Below, one piece after another: positions 20,943 through 46,464 of a stretch of DNA of 64,000 nt. Below the pieces are notes generated by a model. The model was not told where the DNA came from. It saw only the letters and a program-made list of their open reading frames with translations, and did no database searches. How positions within the stretch are numbered: the first letter of the stretch is position 1; the number at the start of each line of letters is the position of its first letter. This DNA is from Vulcanimicrobiota bacterium (GTDB taxonomy: Bacteria; Vulcanimicrobiota; Vulcanimicrobiia; Vulcanimicrobiales; Vulcanimicrobiaceae), in NCBI GenBank assembly GCA_003151115.1, contig PLWS01000002.1:496001-560000 (forward strand), in the 5' to 3' direction. The translations under genes were made by a program, and so were the position numbers.

Positions 20943-22466
20943 CTACGCAGGCTCCCGGTTGAGCACCATGCTTAGGCAGGTTCCGTGCTGGGCTGAATTG
21001 ATGCGAACGCGATCCATCAGTTCGTGCATGAGCACCATTCCGCGCCCCCGATCGTCGCGTTTTTGGAACGTTCGCCAATGCCCGCGGTCTTCGACGTCGA
21101 CGGTGACGCAATCGCTTCGCGCTTCCAAGCGCAGCTCGAACTTGCCGGCGTCCTCACCTTGGTACGCATGTTCGATCGCGTTCGCGACCGCTTCGCCGAC
21201 TGCGGACGTCAGCGCAAAGCGCTGATCCGGCGAGATATTATTCTGATCGCAGAAACGGTTGACCATGGCGCGCACGATCGGCGCGGTCATCGGAATTGCG
21301 GAAAACTCCATGCGGCTGGGCACGGGCCCGTCGAAGCACGAAAGCGCGAGCGTGGCAGCGTCGTCGCGATTGACTGATGTGCTGAAGATGCGTTCTTGCA
21401 ATGCGATTGCCGGATTTTCCGGATCCGATTCGCACGCGCGCACGCTGGCTTCGAGCAGCCGTTCCTCGCCCGCGATCACGTCGCGTTCGTACTCCGTCAT
21501 GCCGTCGGTGTAAAAAACGACCCAGCTGCGCGGCGGCAGCGTCATCACCCAATCGCGGGCGCCGATGTTGTCGCCTATTCCGAGCGGCACGCCGCCGCCC
21601 GGTAGATACCCGGCAAAACCGTCTTCGATCACTAAGGCCGGCGGCGGATGTCCGGCCACCGCATAGGTCAGCTCGCGGCTGACGGGGTCGTAGTAACCGA
21701 ATATGGCGGTGACCATGCCGATGCCGCTGCGCAAGTTCGTCACGCCGTTGATCTGTTCTAAGACGGCAGCCGGAGATCGCTCGCTTACGGCAGCGGCGCG
21801 CAACGCGATCCGCACCTCGCCCATGATGGTCGCGGCCTCGAGCCCGTGACCGGCGACGTCGCCCATCGATATCGCCAAGCGGTGGTCGGGCAGTTCGAAC
21901 GCGTCGTACCAGTCGCCGCCGACCTCGGCCTCCTCGCTGGCGGGGCGGTAGGCGCCGTCCAGCTGCCCGCCGGCCACGCGCGGGAAGCTTGCCGGCAGAA
22001 GCGCCCGCTGGAGGCGGTCCGCCACGCGGTGGCTGCGTTCCAAGAGCGTGGCTTGATCGAGCGCGTTGGTCAGCTGAAGGCCCAGGATCTCGGCGATCTT
22101 GCCAGTCCCGTCCTCGAAGCGCTCTGCATCCTTGGCCGCCAGGACGAAGACGCCGCTTTCGGCGTGCCGGCCGGGCAGCGGGATGACGAGAATGCTTTGG
22201 TACCCCCGGGAGCGCAGGCCCGCCTCGATTTGGGTCCGGTCGCCGCGGCGCAGGCGCAATTTCTTGCCCTGGCCCGCTTCGTGGAAGAACTCCTGGTCGC
22301 TGCGGTCGCTTCCGGCTATGACGCAATAGTCGGCGAGCCGCTCGACGCAGAGCTGCGCCACACGGGGCAGAGTCGCCGATAACTCAAGCGATGAGGCAAG
22401 GAGCCGGCTCGCATCCGCCAGCAGCTCGAGTGCCTGGGAATGGCGAAGGTCGCCGCGCTCAAGCAT
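20943..22466 (-). CDS. GAF-SpoIIE phosphatase fused to anti-sigma-type HATPase
   Basis: A 507-residue cytoplasmic signalling protein. A GAF-like sensor covers about 1-145 ([28 protein letters not shown]). A PP2C/SpoIIE serine phosphatase covers about 150-370, with [27 protein letters not shown] and [10 protein letters not shown] carrying metal-binding aspartates. An RsbW-like HATPase covers about 375-505, with [15 protein letters not shown] and [14 protein letters not shown]. Such fusions act in partner-switching, dephosphorylating an anti-anti-sigma factor and binding it or a sigma factor. No STAS gene is in the window. Divergent from the large hybrid kinase. Confidence 0.9.
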
Positions 22467-22504
22467 ACGTGCCCGGCATTTCTGGGTTCTGCCCCTGCCC
22501 CCCG

Positions 22505-22536
22505 TTTGCTAAACCTGCAAGCCCAAGTTTGGCAAA
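22505..22536. promoter_or_regulatory. Operator-like inverted repeat between divergent signalling genes
   Basis: TTTGCTAAAC (22505-22514) and GTTTGGCAAA (22527-22536) form a ten-base inverted repeat with one mismatch and a 12-base spacer, or 22 bases (two helical turns) from arm centre to arm centre. It lies between the start of the SpoIIE gene (22466, minus) and the likely starts of the hybrid kinase (22551 or 22593, plus). The spacing suits a dimeric regulator controlling both genes. Confidence 0.45.
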
Positions 22537-22592
22537 GGACGAATCGGGCAATGAGGAAGTCAGCCGCATCCACTACGGAGCAACTTTCATTT

Positions 22593-25500
22593 ATGGCGAC
22601 AACGACCCGTACGAAATCGGCGCGCAATGGCAAGACGCTGTCAAACGGCGCCCCAAGTCAGCATTCGGCCAACGGATCTTCGTATAACCGGAAACTACTG
22701 AATGCGCTGCGCTCTTTCCGCGACGGAAACTTTGCAGTCCGGCTGCCGGTGCGCGGCGTCGGGCTCGAAGCCGAACTCGCCGAAGCGTTCAACTCTTGCG
22801 TGCAGATCAAGCAGCACATGCTGCGCGAGATCATGCGCGTCAGTCGCGTGGTGGGACGCGAGGGTCGCGTCAACGAGCGCGCACTGCTTCCGGAAGCGAC
22901 GGGCGGGTGGAAAGAACAGGTCGAGGCGTACAATCACCTGATCGACGACCTGACTGCGCCGATGGCCGAAACCAACCGCGTGCTGGGGTCGGTCGCGCAA
23001 GGCGATCTCGGACAGCGGATTCCCGTGGATATCGACGGCCGTCCGTTGCGCGGCGAATTCTTACGCTCCGCAAAATTGATCAACGCGATGGTCGACCAGC
23101 TCAACGCGTTCGCATCCGAAGTGACGCGCGTCGCGCGCGAAGTCGGCTCCGAAGGCAAACTGGGCGGCCAGGCCAGCGTCAAAGGCGTCGCCGGCACGTG
23201 GAAAGATTTGACCGACTCGGTCAACACGATGGCCGGTAACTTGACGTCGCAGGTACGTAACATCGCCGACGTTACGACCGCAGTCGCTCGAGGCGACCTC
23301 TCGCGCAAGATCGCGGTCGAAGCCGCCGGCGAAATTCTCGAACTCAAAAACACGATCAACACCATGGTCGACCAGTTGAACGCGTTCGCATCCGAAGTCA
23401 CGCGCGTCGCGCGCGAAGTCGGTTCCGAAGGCAAACTGGGCGGCCAGGCCGAGGTGCAAGGCGTCAGCGGCACGTGGAAAGATCTCACCGAGTCGGTGAA
23501 CTTCATGGCCTCCAACCTGACCTCGCAAGTGCGTAACATCGCCGAAGTGACCACCGCCGTCGCCAAGGGCGACCTTTCGAAGAAGATTACCGTAGACGTG
23601 CGCGGCGAAATCCTCGAGCTGAAGAACACGATCAACACGATGGTCGACCAGTTGAACGCGTTCGCATCGGAAGTCACGCGCGTCGCTCGCGAAGTCGGAT
23701 CGGAAGGCATCCTGGGCGGCCAAGCACAGGTGGCGGGCGTCAGCGGCACCTGGAAAGACCTCACCGAGTCGGTGAACTTCATGGCCGCCAACTTGACGTC
23801 GCAAGTGCGTAACATCGCCGACGTGACGACCGCCGTCGCCAAAGGCGACCTTTCCAGAAAGATCACCGTCAGCGTTCGCGGCGAGATTCTCGAACTCAAG
23901 AACACGATCAATACGATGGTCGACCAGCTCAACGCGTTCGCGGGCGAAGTTACGCGCGTCGCGCGCGAAGTCGGTTCCGAAGGCAAACTCGGCGGCCAGG
24001 CCGACGTCAAAGGCGTCAGCGGCACGTGGAAAGACTTGACCGACTCCGTGAACCGGATGGCGTCGAACCTCACCTCGCAAGTGCGTAACATCGCCGACGT
24101 GACGACCGCCGTCGCCAAAGGCGACCTCTCCCGTAAGATCACCGTCGACGTGCGCGGCGAAATTCTGGAACTCAAAAACACGATCAACACGATGGTCGAC
24201 CAGTTGAACGCCTTCGCATCGGAAGTGACGCGCGTCGCGCGCGAAGTCGGCTCCGAAGGGAAGCTGGGCGGTCAAGCCCAGGTGGCCGGCGTCAGCGGCA
24301 CGTGGCGCGACTTGACCGAGTCCGTGAACTTCATGGCCTCGAACCTGACGAACCAAGTGCGTAACATCGCCGAAGTCACGACCGCCGTTGCGAAGGGCGA
24401 TCTTTCAAAGAAGATTACGGTCGACGTGCGCGGCGAGATTCTCGAACTCAAGAACACGATCAACACGATGGTCGACCAGCTCAACGCGTTCGCGTCCGAA
24501 GTCACACGCGTCGCGCGCGAAGTCGGTTCCGAAGGGAAGCTGGGCGGTCAGGCCGAGGTGGCCGGCGTCAGCGGCACCTGGCGCGACTTGACGCTCTCGG
24601 TGAACTCGATGGCGTCGAACCTCACCAACCAAGTCCGTAACATCGCCGAGGTCACGACCGCCGTTGCGAATGGCGACCTTTCCAAGAAGATCACCGTCGA
24701 CGTCCGCGGCGAAATTCTCGAACTCAAAAACACGATCAACACGATGGTCGACCAGTTGAACGCGTTCGCATCGGAAGTGACGCGCGTCGCGCGCGAAGTC
24801 GGTTCCGAAGGCCGTCTGGGCGGACAAGCGTTCGTGCGCGGCGTGGCCGGCACGTGGAAAGACTTGACCGACTCGGTGAACACGATGGCTTCGAACCTGA
24901 CGTCGCAGGTGCGTAACATCGCGAAGGTGACGACGGCCGTTGCGCTCGGCGACCTTTCGAAGAAGATCACGGTCGACGTGCGCGGCGAAATTCTCGAACT
25001 CAAAGACACGATCAACACGATGGTCGATCAGTTGAACGCGTTCGCATCGGAAGTCACGCGCGTCGCTCGCGAAGTCGGCTCCGAAGGCAAACTGGGCGGC
25101 CAAGCGCAGGTTCCGGGCGTCAGCGGCACATGGAAAGACCTCACCGACAACGTGAACTTCATGGCCGCCAACCTAACCAACCAAGTGCGCGGCATCGCGC
25201 AGGTCGTGACGTCGGTCGCCAACGGCGATCTCAAACGCAAACTCACGCTGGAAGCCAAAGGCGAGATCGCGCGCCTTGCGGACACGATCAATTTTATGAT
25301 CGACACGCTGGCGACGTTCGCCGACCAGGTGACGACCGTTGCGCGCGAAGTCGGTTTCGAAGGGAAGCTGGGCGGACAAGCCCAGGTGCCGGGCGCGGCC
25401 GGTTTGTGGCGCGACCTGACCGACTCCGTGAACCAGTTGGCGGCACAGTTGACCTCGCAGATTCGCGCCATCGGTGAAGTCGCCACCGCTGTTACCAAGG

Positions 25501-28349
25501 GCGACTTATCGCGAGCGGTACAAGTCGAAGCGCGCGGCGAGGTCGCCGAACTGACGCGCAACGTCAACGAAATGATTCAGAACCTGCGCGACACGACGCG
25601 CAAGAACACCGATCAGGACTGGCTCAAGACCAACGTCGCGCGATTCACCGCCATGCTGCAAGGCCAGCGCGATACCAAGACCGTCAGCCGGATGATCATT
25701 TCGGAGATCGCTCCGCTGGTCAGCGCCTACTCGGGCGCGTTCTACGTGACCGAGCCGATCGGCGACGAACAAGTGCTGCGCCTGATGGCGAGCTACGCCA
25801 TCAGTAAGAAGAAAGCTGCGCAGCGGACGATCCGCGAAGGCGAGGGGCTCGTCGGGCAGTGCCTGGTCGAACGCCAGCGCATCTTGTTAACCGAAGTGCC
25901 GCCGGACTACATGGCGATCGGTTCGGGCTTGGGTGAAACCAAGCCGCTCTCGCTGATCGTACTGCCGGTGCTGTTCGAAGGCGAGGTCAAAGCCGTCATC
26001 GAGCTGGCTTCGACCGAGCGGTTTAACGAGACGCAGCTGCAGTTCTTCGATCAATTGACCGAGTCGGTCGGCGTCATCCTGAACACGATCGGCGCGACGA
26101 TGCGCACCGAAGAACTGCTCAAGCAGTCGCAAGCGCTGACCAACGAGCTGCAGAGCCAGCAGATGGAGCTGCAGCAGACCAACGACGAATTGGAAGAGCG
26201 TTCGCGTCTCTTGCAAGAGCGGAACGAAGAAATCGAACGGCGTACGCGCGAAATCGACGAAGCGCGCCAAGAGCTCGAAAAGAAAGCCGAGCAGCTCGCG
26301 CTTACGTCCAAGTACAAGTCGCAGTTCCTAGCAAATATGTCCCACGAGCTGCGCACGCCGCTCAACTCGCTGCTGATTCTCTCCAAGCAGTTGGCGGACA
26401 ACCCCGACGGCAACATGACCAACAAGCAGATCGAGTTCGCGCAGACGATTCGGGCTGCGGGTACCGACCTGCTGACGCTCATCAACGACATCCTCGATCT
26501 GTCGAAAATCGAATCGGGCACCACGTCGATCGATCTGCAAGAGATTCCGTTCCAAACGATCGAGGACGACATCGCCCGCACGTTCAGTCAGGTTGCGGCC
26601 GACAAGGCGCTGAATTTCACGATCAAGCGCCACGAAGACGTCTCCGAGAACCTGGTTACCGACGCAACGCGGCTGCAGCAGATCCTCAAGAACCTGCTTT
26701 CCAACGCGTTCAAGTTCACCACCGAAGGCGGCGTAACGCTGGAAATTTCGCTGCTCAAGGAACACCGCCTCAGCTCGATCAAGGGGCCGGCGGTCGCGTT
26801 CGCGGTAACGGACACCGGCATCGGCATTCCGCCCGACAAGTTCAATGTGATCTTCGAAGCGTTCCAGCAAGCCGATATGGGAACGTCGCGCAAGTTCGGC
26901 GGTACCGGTCTGGGACTGGCGATCAGCCGCGAAATTGCGGGATTGCTCGGCGGCGAGATCGGCGTGGAAAGCACGATTGGCGAAGGCAGCACGTTCACGT
27001 TCTATCATCCGGCGGAACGCATTGCCGGCCCGTCGATCGCGCGGCCGTTCGGCATGATCGGGGAGGCGCATCCCGCGCGCCAGGGGCCGCAGCCGCGCGA
27101 TGCGACGCCGGCGCGCACACTCGAAATGTCGCCGTCGCTCGAAGCGATCGCCGACGATCGCGGCAAGATCGAGAGCACCGACAGGGTGCTGCTGATCATC
27201 GAAGACGACGCCATTTTCGCGCGTATTCTGCTCGGGCTGGCGCGCGACCGCGGGTTCAAAGCCGTCGTCGCGCTGAGCGGTGAAGAGGGCGTTGCGTTCG
27301 CAAGAAAATACCTGCCCGACGCGATCACGCTCGACATCGGATTGCCCGACGTCGACGGCTGGAAGCTGCTGGCGGATCTCAAGCACGATTCGTCAACTGC
27401 GAACATTCCGGTGCACGTCATCTCCGGCGAAGAGCAATGGCAGCGCGCGCTAGACGCGGGCGCCATCGCGCACCTGCGCAAGCCGGTGACCGAAGAGGCG
27501 TTGACCGAAACGTTCGATAACCTGCTCGGCTTCGCGGACCGGCGCACCAAAAATCTGCTGGTGATCGAAGACGACATCACGCAGCTGAACGCCATGGTGA
27601 ATCTCATCGGAAGCGGCGAGGTCGCCGTGACGGCCGTGCGTTCGGGCGACGAAGCGATCGAAGCCCTCAACACGGGCAAGTTCGACTGCATCGTTGTCGA
27701 TCTGGGTCTGCCCGACATTCCGGGAGATCAGTTGATCGAACGCATCCGCATGCAAGCCGAACACGCTCGCACGCCGATCGTCGTTTACACCGGCCGCGAT
27801 CTCTCGCGGCAAGAGGAAGCCAAGCTCAGCAAGCTCAGCGAGGCCGTCATCGTTAAAGACGCGATGTCACCCGAACGCCTGCTCGACGAAACGCGGTTCT
27901 TCTTGCATCAAGTCGAGTCGCGTCTGCCGGCTGCAAAACGGACCAGCGACATACCCCCGCTCGGCACGGCGACGCTCGAGAACAAGAAGGTGCTGATCGT
28001 CGACGACGACGCGCGCAACATCTACGCGCTGAGCACCGCCCTCGAAGCGCATCACCTGATGCCCGTGAGCGCGGAGAGCGGTCAGGAAGGCATCGACAAA
28101 CTGATGCAAGACCCGTCGATCGACATCGTGCTGATGGACATCATGATGCCGGAAATGGACGGCTACGAAACGATCCGCCGCATCCGTTCAAATCCGCGTT
28201 TCGAAAACATGCCGATCATCGCGCTCACCGCAAAAGCGATGAAAGGCGACCGCGAGAGTTCGATCGCCGCCGGCGCTTCGGAATACATCAGCAAGCCCGT
28301 CGACATGGATCAGCTCATCTCGCTGCTGAGGGTATGGCTCAACCGGTGA
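22593..28349 (+). CDS. Poly-HAMP hybrid histidine kinase with GAF and three receiver domains
   Basis: A protein of about 1918 residues with no transmembrane helix, so probably cytosolic. Order: one divergent and nine near-identical 92-residue HAMP units (22810-25562), a GAF domain (about 25640-26085), a coiled coil (about 26090-26310), HisKA with the phospho-accepting histidine in [14 protein letters not shown] (His codon 26343-26345), HATPase with GTGLGLAIS (to about 27020), then three receivers near 27180-27520, 27550-27890 and 27980-28340, each with a phosphorylatable aspartate ([30 protein letters not shown]). The architecture matches the group III (Nik1/Os-1) osmosensor kinases. ATG 22593 and ATG 22551 are both possible starts. 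It overlaps the CheR-like gene. Confidence 0.9.
23079..25562 (+). repeat. Nine tandem 276-base repeats encoding HAMP units
   Basis: Units start at 23079, 23355, 23631, 23907, 24183, 24459, 24735, 25011 and 25287, exactly 276 bases apart. Each encodes the pattern [20 protein letters not shown], then [21 protein letters not shown] and GDLS. Units 1-7 are nearly identical; 8 and 9 diverge. The same invariant words recur at DNA level, so the block is prone to recombination and copy-number change, and to collapse in assembly. Confidence 0.93.
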
Positions 28350-29218
28350 TCATCGAGGAGCGGCCGGCGGCAACGCCTCCGGCCGCCGATCGCAACCACA
28401 CCGACGAACTCGCTAGCATCGAGCTTTCGCTCTTGCTCGATGCGGTGCTGCGCTGGCGCGGCTATGATTTTCGTGACTACAGCGCCGCGATGCTCAAGCG
28501 CCGCGTCGCCGAGCGTATGCGCGCCGAAAACGCGGAGACGATCTCCGGCCTGCAGGAACGCTTTCTGCACGACGAGGATGCGCTGCGGCGCTTCGTCTTT
28601 GCGATGTCGGCCAATACCAACAGGCTCTTCCGCGCGCCGGAATACTTCCGCGCGATCCGGCAGCGCGTCATCACGTTCTTACGCACCTACTCGTTTGCGC
28701 GCATCTGGTTCCCCGCATGCTCGACGGGCGAAGACGTCTACACCGTGCTGGCGATTCTCTTCGAAGAAGACCTCCTCGACCGGTGCATGCTGTACGCCAC
28801 CGATCTCAGCGATCTCGCGCTCGCGCAAGCGCGCGAAGGCGTCTTCGAAATCAACTCGTACGAGGAGTTCTCCAACGATTATCTCTTGAGTGGCGGGCGC
28901 AAGTCCGTGTCAGACTTCTCCGAATACGCCGACGGCAAGGTGAAGTTCAACGAGTCGCTGACGCACAATCTCATCTTCGCGACGCACGGCCTCGCTACCG
29001 ATGCATCGCTGAACGAATTTCATGCGATCGTGGCTCGCGGCGTCTTACCGCAGTTCAACAAGACGCTGCAGTATCGCGTCCACAACCTGTTCTTGCAAAG
29101 CCTCTCGCGTTTCGGCTTCATCTGCTTGAGCTCGGCCGAGTCACTGCACTCGACTCCGCACGAGGGCGCCTTCAAAAAAGTCGACGACGTTTTCCCAATC
29201 TACCGCCGCATGCGCTAA
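28334..29218 (+). CDS. CheR-like SAM-dependent methyltransferase
   Basis: A 294-residue protein with the CheR layout: an N-terminal helical domain with [17 protein letters not shown], then the Rossmann domain with [17 protein letters not shown] (family CSTGEEPYS), [18 protein letters not shown], and a C-terminal LSSAESL. The usual NPTxFFRD and CRNVLIYF motifs are altered to [12 protein letters not shown] and VARGVLPQF. CheR methylates glutamates on chemoreceptors, and here the target may be the poly-HAMP kinase, whose gene it overlaps by 16 bases. No cheB is present. Confidence 0.8.
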
Positions 29219-29223
29219 GAGTC

Positions 29224-29383
29224 AGAGTGGGCCACCCCAAGGCCCCGTGAAACCCCTGGCAAAAAAACGTCCATGTTTTTTTGCCGTTTGAGCACTTTTT
29301 CGAGAGAACAAAGTTTTGAAGTCGACATCCTGTCGAGCTCGAAAAAGTTGCACATTTCCCGGAGCCTCGGGGCGGCCCACTCT
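29224..29383. ncRNA. 160-base multi-branched palindromic element, candidate structured RNA
   Basis: The gap after the CheR-like gene folds almost completely. The outer stem pairs 29224-29252 with 29355-29383, beginning with ten perfect pairs AGAGTGGGCC/GGCCCACTCT and continuing with few mismatches. Inside are two arms: GGCAAAAAAAC/GTTTTTTTGCC (29258-29285, loop GTCCAT) and ACTTTTTCGAG/CTCGAAAAAGT (29294-29348). The second arm contains TCGACA/TGTCGA (29322-29336). It is either a structured RNA, a mobile palindromic element or a complex bidirectional terminator. Confidence 0.55.
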
Positions 29384-29449: not shown

Positions 29450-29686
29450 ATGGTTTCGTCCCAGGTAATCAACGAGTTTTTCGCATGGGCTCCGTTCGTG
29501 GTGCTCGCCGTGATTCTCGTGGTCGCTTACGTGTTGACCCGCGGCGAGAAGCAATTGGCTGCGCCTATAGGCAAGACGTATTCTTGCGCTAGGTGCGGGC
29601 GCCGCGGCGTGCGCGAGCACATGGTTCCGGTGACGGTAGAAGGCGCGGTCGTCTGGTATTGCGGACGCTGCGTGCACGCGCACTAA
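29450..29686 (+). CDS. Small membrane protein with zinc-ribbon
   Basis: A 78-residue protein with one transmembrane helix (FVVLAVILVVAYVLT, about 15-30) followed by a cytoplasmic zinc-ribbon: CARCGRRG and, 20 residues later, CGRC. The four cysteines in two CxxC pairs probably hold one zinc. I do not recognise a named family. It lies 22 bases before glutamate dehydrogenase; no clear ribosome site is visible before its ATG. Confidence 0.65.
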   Translation: MVSSQVINEFFAWAPFVVLAVILVVAYVLTRGEKQLAAPIGKTYSCARCGRRGVREHMVPVTVEGAVVWYCGRCVHAH

Positions 29687-45438: not shown

Positions 45439-46416
45439 ATGAGGAGCTTATACGCACTCCTGATTGGCGCATTGCTGCTTAGCAACGCGCTCCCGTCGTC
45501 TGCACAAACGACGCCCTTGCCATCACCCTCTCCCGCGGTAGCGCCGGCCGCGACTTTCGTCGCGCCGCCGGATTGGGTGCAACTGCCGCGCGGATTTACG
45601 CTGACCGAGATCAAGAATCTCTGGCGCGGACCCAGAACAGGCGGCCCCGCCGGCGGCGGAGTCTTCGCGCAAGCAGTGCTCCCGCTTCCGTCAGGGATCG
45701 TCGCCGCATTGCTGGGCCAACTTCGCGGCGTGCTCGCGAACTCGAAGACGAAAAAGAAGCTCTCTATGATGACGGCCTCGCCCAAAATATGCGGCTCGAC
45801 CGCCAGCGTTTCAACTTTGCATCTAGGTGGCGCCAAACCGGCAATCATTGAAACGACTACGCTCTCGCAGCGCGGGCTAACCTACGCGACGGTCTACGTG
45901 CGCACGTCGAGCAAGCCGGATCCTGCGATTGAATCGGCGCTGCGCTCCGCGTGCCCGCTACCGAACGGCGGTTTGCCTGATGCGACACCACCCCGCGGAT
46001 GGAGCGCGGTGCAAAAGGGATTGGACTTCGAACTCGGCGGCATCTGGCTTGGCAACGCGCCGCTGCAGATCATGACGATGCTCAAGGCGCGCGGAATGCC
46101 GGATCTGATGTCGACTGCGCAGATGGCGCCGACGACGACGTCAGGCACGCAGCATTCAGTGAAGTATCGGGCATCGATGCAAAAACTGAAGTTCTGCGGT
46201 ACTCCCGGATTGCTGGCCACGGCGCAGTTCATCGTTCCGCCGGGGTTCGGCATGACGTACAGCGTGGCAGTGGCGCAGGGCATGGAAGGCACGTTCGTGC
46301 TTTCCTATTTCCATCCGTCGAGTTATACGGATGCGGGAGCGCAGCAATCGATGCGCACGCTGTGCGCAGGCTCGCCGCTGCCTTCACCGTCGCCGTCGGC
46401 ATCGCCGCACGCATAA
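45439..46416 (+). CDS. Secreted protein of unknown function
   Basis: A 325-residue protein with a signal peptide (LYALLIGALLLSNALPSSAQ), a Pro/Ser linker, and what look like two related halves. Each has a pattern DWVQLPRGFTL or GWSAVQKGLDFELGGIWLG, followed by a CG(S/T) segment (KICGSTASV and KFCGTPGLL) and AKxxIIETTTLSQRG or AQFIVPPGFGMTY. This suggests an internal duplication. It ends in a low-complexity SPSPSPSASP tail. No family recognised. Confidence 0.7.
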   Translation: MRSLYALLIGALLLSNALPSSAQTTPLPSPSPAVAPAATFVAPPDWVQLPRGFTLTEIKNLWRGPRTGGPAGGGVFAQAVLPLPSGIVAALLGQLRGVLANSKTKKKLSMMTASPKICGSTASVSTLHLGGAKPAIIETTTLSQRGLTYATVYVRTSSKPDPAIESALRSACPLPNGGLPDATPPRGWSAVQKGLDFELGGIWLGNAPLQIMTMLKARGMPDLMSTAQMAPTTTSGTQHSVKYRASMQKLKFCGTPGLLATAQFIVPPGFGMTYSVAVAQGMEGTFVLSYFHPSSYTDAGAQQSMRTLCAGSPLPSPSPSASPHA

Positions 46417-46452
46417 AAAAAGAGCGCGGTCCCCTGACTGCGCTCTTTTTTT
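46415..46452. terminator. Bidirectional rho-independent terminator
   Basis: Seven A residues and GAGCGC (46415-46427), a 12-base loop, then GCGCTC and seven T residues (46440-46452) form a perfect 13-base stem flanked by T-runs on both strands. It separates two convergent genes and should stop transcription from either side. Confidence 0.92.
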
Positions 46453-46464
46453 ACCCGCGACCCG

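Follow-up and report, generated by a model that had tools for sequence, protein, structure and literature searches.

The element under study is located between a CheR-type methyltransferase gene and a small open reading frame with a CxxC...CxxC pattern, which is followed by a glutamate-type dehydrogenase gene. The coordinates, given as positions in the window (the whole 64-kb stretch of DNA that was analysed), are listed in Table 1. Positions 22440-28349 encode a hybrid histidine kinase of 1969 aa, in which numerous nearly identical repeat units precede the kinase and receiver domains; by eye, these units appear to form a HAMP-like tandem.

Table 1. Parts of the element and adjoining genes in the window.
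Feature	Position	Strand	Remarks
Whole element	29224-29383	minus	RNA 5' end at 29383, 3' end at 29224
P1 closing stem, 5' arm	29352-29383	minus	outer part hypervariable; inner GGAAA more conserved
P2, 5' arm	29338-29351	minus	
Hairpin HP3	29322-29336	minus	UCGACA-GGA-UGUCGA; C-G closed stem, A-GGA-U loop
Conserved segment UUCAAAACUUUGUU	29307-29320	minus	on the 3' side of HP3
P2, 3' arm	29292-29304	minus	
Hairpin HP4	29258-29285	minus	A7/T7 stem, loop C-AUGGAC-G
P1 closing stem, 3' arm	29224-29255	minus	ends 5 nt past the stop codon of the CheR-type gene
CheR-type methyltransferase gene	28334-29218	plus	antisense to the element RNA; stop codon adjoins the element
Small ORF, CxxC...CxxC pattern	29450-29686	plus	no Pfam match

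The 160 bases had been described as a single closed fold, and this was borne out on both strands. The folding energy is -79.6 kcal/mol for the plus-strand RNA (z = -8.03 against dinucleotide shuffles) and -90.7 kcal/mol for the minus-strand RNA (z = -10.57), and none of 200 shuffles reached the native value. An imperfect outer stem of 29 pairs had been read from the plus strand; the long stem itself stands, but the minus strand gives 30 pairs, among them 24 contiguous outer pairs (G-U included). Two 11-pair arms and a nested stem had been described; one arm is an A7/T7 hairpin of 11 pairs, and the other is a stem of 13 pairs that bears a 6-pair hairpin. No other inverted repeat in the window scores as high. 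The strongest simple hairpin of the window is a different one, an A7/T7-flanked structure at 46414-46453, which is probably a bidirectional intrinsic terminator.

A dispersed family with covarying pairs

The initial annotation is correct but understates the case. The search for further copies that it had proposed revealed seven by blastn in the own genome (2.56 Mb in eight contigs), so the element is not unique, and a covariance model built from the alignment of these seven gave nine matches in the same genome. Compensatory double changes were found in 33 of the 51 pairs among the seven copies. Over 39 model matches, an alignment which is fitted to the model and hence favours its structure, and in which three rows duplicate other copies through weak matches on the reverse strand, 94.8% of the pair cells hold standard pairs and all 51 pairs covary with double changes. 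The covariation score of this alignment is 0.919, compared with 0.216 after shuffling and at most 0.173 with the partners slid. A MAFFT-only alignment of the seven own-genome copies agrees with the structure.

Model searches detected the element throughout the genus (7 of 7 genomes) and in about half of the family (30 of 61 genomes); a single genome has up to 35 copies, although copy counts are uncertain in fragmented assemblies. Across the phylum it occurs in 44 of 149 genomes, mostly metagenome-assembled; all 44 belong to the same family, and no match lies outside it in this set. The named relatives are Candidatus Eremiobacterota, a hardly studied phylum. Rfam gave no match at the gathering score and, at E values up to 1, just one microRNA model, which is irrelevant and scores far short of its cut-off. 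No match was found in plasmid and phage sequences, and no earlier description of such an element in the open-licence literature. Pattern matches in contigs of Pirellula, Desulfobacteraceae, Hydrotalea, Gloeocapsa and Prochlorococcus do not fit the model and are attributed to chance. The element belongs, as one of its copies, to a clade-specific, dispersed and strongly conserved family of RNA-like structure in Ca. Eremiobacterota that had not been catalogued before.

One copy (L086, 1950-2163) has a near-perfect P1 of 51 pairs which runs to the end of the L086 sequence and may be an assembly artefact.

The outer stem and the sites that carry it

P1 is locus-specific: it typically comprises 20-30 bp (median 27 pairs), its sequence differs in almost every copy, and its pairing persists. 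Between paralogues, P1 is 38% identical and the core 76%. Compared with a copy that another species carries at a different locus, the window copy shows 96% identity in the core and 19% in P1. At orthologous loci, core identity is mostly 80-98%, the lowest value being 61% (window locus, genomes G000 and G002), as against 27-85% for P1, in which pairing is retained. Cores up to 98% identical across species sit within stems without remaining resemblance. Matched changes in both P1 arms were seen at the L152 locus and at the L148/L158 (rho) loci.

The core is inverted between species at four shared sites. G005 carries the inverted core at the window locus, and G006 does so at the L152 and L164 loci. 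The fourth site adjoins the rho gene, which lies directly 5' of a copy in six of seven species (G000 C6:475320; L148, L158, L169, L172, L173, L179); these copies fall into two species groups of opposite orientation, G000 and G002 on one side and G001, G003, G005 and G006 on the other. Template switching is a documented cause of both concerted stem re-pairing and spacer inversion (PMC8794818, PMC8604942). The hairpins described there share with the element the concerted multi-base changes in both arms and the inverted spacer, but in the element the whole spacer is inverted, and it consists of a structured, conserved core some 100 nt long. P1 offers an unusually clear natural record of long-stem re-pairing and spacer inversion.

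Some orthologous sites lack the element. G002 lacks the copy at C6:481568 together with both of its arms (about 205 bases in all), a difference which is unpolarised as to gain or loss. At the L152 locus, G002 retains a single arm, ACGTACCGGCTCCGAAACTCAAG, with neither core nor second arm; G001 has a short gap there and G003 a different repeat. At the L164 locus, where a separate intrinsic terminator adjoins the element, G002 has a truncated copy and G000 a long hairpin without core. A long core-less hairpin of G000, TGATATGTGCCGAGGGG...CCCCTCGGCGCATATCA (C4:267.3-267.6 kb; L232, about 1470 bases in), lies at a place where relatives have the element.

Working strand and hairpin loops

A DNA palindrome by itself would be expected to be indifferent to strand. 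On the sense strand of the element, which is the minus strand of the window, the mispairs of P1 are G-U in 120 and A-C in 33 cases (79 copies; p = 8e-13, an optimistic value because the genus copies are mutually non-independent). The genus copies alone give 69 G-U and 7 A-C; nearly all of them were also recovered by strand-blind blastn, which makes a bias of the model search unlikely. The excess of G-U argues for selection on single-strand folding, and judged by these mispairs the working strand is the minus strand. RNA would be the simplest reading, a stage as single-stranded DNA being the alternative. The new structured RNA that had been listed among the options is well supported by this strand-specific bias together with the covariation of all pairs, while a pure DNA cruciform leaves the bias unexplained.

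The gene context was derived for the 43 genus copies with a purpose-written codon-usage gene caller and is approximate. Most copies adjoin stop codons, in either orientation: 21 are antisense to both neighbours, 11 are sense to both, nine lie between convergent and two between divergent genes. In 23 of the 43, no sense-oriented gene is located upstream. The neighbouring genes are of mixed function and therefore indicate no link to a pathway.

On the minus strand, both hairpins expose A(N)GGAX loops on C-G closed stems. The loop of HP3 occurs as CA-GGA-UG or CAUGGAUG, and HP4 of the window copy reads CAUGGACG. Of 91 aligned rows, 70 have GGA in both loops; taken singly, nearly every HP3 loop and about four-fifths of the HP4 loops have it, and about a dozen copies show CGA instead in HP4. 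The stems below vary freely and covary, the loops being constant. The high-affinity Csr/Rsm site, as described for RsmZ and RsmE, is an ANGGAX hexaloop placed directly on a C-G closed stem, and SL3 and SL4 of RsmZ are A-GGAX pentaloops lacking the N (PMC4005645). The two loops of the element look like sites where CsrA, a global regulator, could dock.

A canonical CsrA of 60 aa is encoded in the own genome, and csrA was found in 50 of the 61 family genomes. Presence of the element and of csrA are not associated: among genomes at least 90% complete, csrA is lacking in 3 of 21 element carriers and in 3 of 23 non-carriers. The element shares the A(N)GGAX loops on C-G closed stems with the CsrA-sequestering sRNAs CsrB/CsrC and RsmX/Y/Z. 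Unlike these, it is dispersed up to 35-fold, has no Rfam match and has just two such hairpins on a long closing stem of free sequence. The 5' flanks of the copies show no enriched promoter motif, and TTTT follows within 15 nt of the 3' end in just 4 of 79 copies; as far as sequence signals go, the promoter and terminator of a CsrB/RsmZ-type sRNA are thus lacking.

Role, spread and origin of the outer stem

The element is best read as a dispersed structured RNA with CsrA as its probable ligand, the pairing of P1 being kept by selection together with template switching. The long closing stem would present two arms, P2 capped by HP3 on the one hand and HP4 on the other. Where a copy is transcribed, the two GGA loops could bind CsrA dimers and make it a CsrA sponge or docking site; the junction and P1 would hold the two sites in fixed geometry, and P1 would stabilise the fold. 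Pairing would be the sole sequence constraint on P1, which may drift and then regain its pairs through compensatory changes and through a switch of template from one arm to the other, the latter being able also to flip the enclosed core. Copies of the core would spread among intergenic sites adjoining stop codons. To this reading in full, a minus-strand RNA element of Eremiobacterota with two CsrA-binding loops, a P1 free in sequence and dispersed core copies, we give an even chance. CsrA binding appears to be the best match to loops and strand, though for half of the copies sense transcription is not evident. If it is true, a covarying multicopy RNA with CsrA-type loops would amount to a so far unrecognised level of control by CsrA beyond the classical Csr/Rsm systems.

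The main rival to the CsrA reading is a mobile single-stranded DNA. The element would then be a miniature of the MITE/REP class without a regulatory role, its core being recognised by a transposase on folded single-stranded DNA and its stem acquired or repaired locally. The copies are indeed multiple, dispersed, in either orientation and absent at orthologous sites, to which extent the MITE-like nature suggested at the outset was upheld; moreover, cores are common to different loci and P1 is not, and the tolerance of G-T pairs in single-stranded DNA would yield the same strand bias. However, direct repeats at the junctions are no longer than in shuffled pairs, so target duplications do not exceed chance, and the ends are not conserved: the outer repeats are unshared, and P1, at half the identity of the core, is unlike the terminal inverted repeats of a MITE. 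The loops, in addition, are constrained to a specific protein-binding motif. REP, BIME and REPIN elements with their RAYTs are likewise palindromic, intergenic, adjacent to stop codons, found in either orientation and folded as a single strand, but they are hairpins of 20-40 nt and not a 160-nt three-way junction with a sequence-free outer stem in a host without Y1 transposase. The Y1/RAYT transposase (PF01797) was detected in none of the element-bearing genomes among the 61 searched, only in G042 and G048, where no element was found, and a REP/RAYT element was rejected. ERIC- and NEMIS-type repeats resemble the element as multicopy, clade-specific, imperfect intergenic palindromes of about 100-160 nt; they retain conserved terminal repeats, whereas its outer repeat is locus-specific. 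On balance we regard mobile DNA as possible but unlikely. A retron-like element, also proposed initially, finds no support in the dispersed-repeat pattern or among 20 flanking and nearby genes at the window copy and at other copies, none of which matches a reverse transcriptase.

Rather doubtful is a selfish or domesticated RNA, in which a module with two CsrA loops would acquire a P1 rebuilt at each locus by foldback synthesis or template switching, the copies spreading without shared ends. We know of no bacterial repeat that spreads without shared ends by means of a locally rebuilt stem.

An element at the 3' end of mRNA, a terminator or stabiliser for the transcript of the gene that ends in the adjoining stop codon, would account for the position of the copies, just 2 of 43 of which lie between divergent genes. 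We consider it improbable. In the 20 copies with both neighbouring genes antisense to the element, the mispairs of P1 are 41 G-U and 3 A-C, so the signal tracks the strand of the element and not that of the mRNA; orientation flips at one and the same locus, the L164 locus has an intrinsic terminator of its own beside the element, and a U-run is rare.

Insertion of the core into the loops of pre-existing hairpins, with P1 as the target and not a part of the element, would explain why P1 differs at nearly every locus, the long hairpin of G000 at L164 and the sequence matching one P1 arm at the core-less L152 site of G002, but it is very improbable: 614 kb of same-genus sequence contain no simple short-loop hairpin with at least 17 net pairs, so that P1 does not come from a pool of ready-made hairpins, and the clearest comparison with a missing copy (L148 versus L158) shows neither arm.

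As to how P1 arises, an inverted duplication of target or flank on arrival of the core, by foldback synthesis, is compatible with the preferred CsrA-binding RNA and is put forward tentatively. The lone arm at the L152 site of G002 would be expected from such an event, and the arm on the gene side at L163 takes in the conserved end of the upstream gene for the 49-kDa subunit of NADH dehydrogenase, which the distal arm mirrors. The one-armed site, however, fits a deletion remnant equally well, and at L163 the sequence that is mirrored, TCGATCGA, is a palindrome in itself.

Another repeat, GTCATCCTGAGCnTGTCGAAGGAC, is likewise dispersed between genes and was noticed at L187 (1467-1490), L218 (2224-2247), L148 (5636-5659) and 11 other loci. 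It sits at some of the intergenic sites that lack the element, namely at the L157 and L163 loci.
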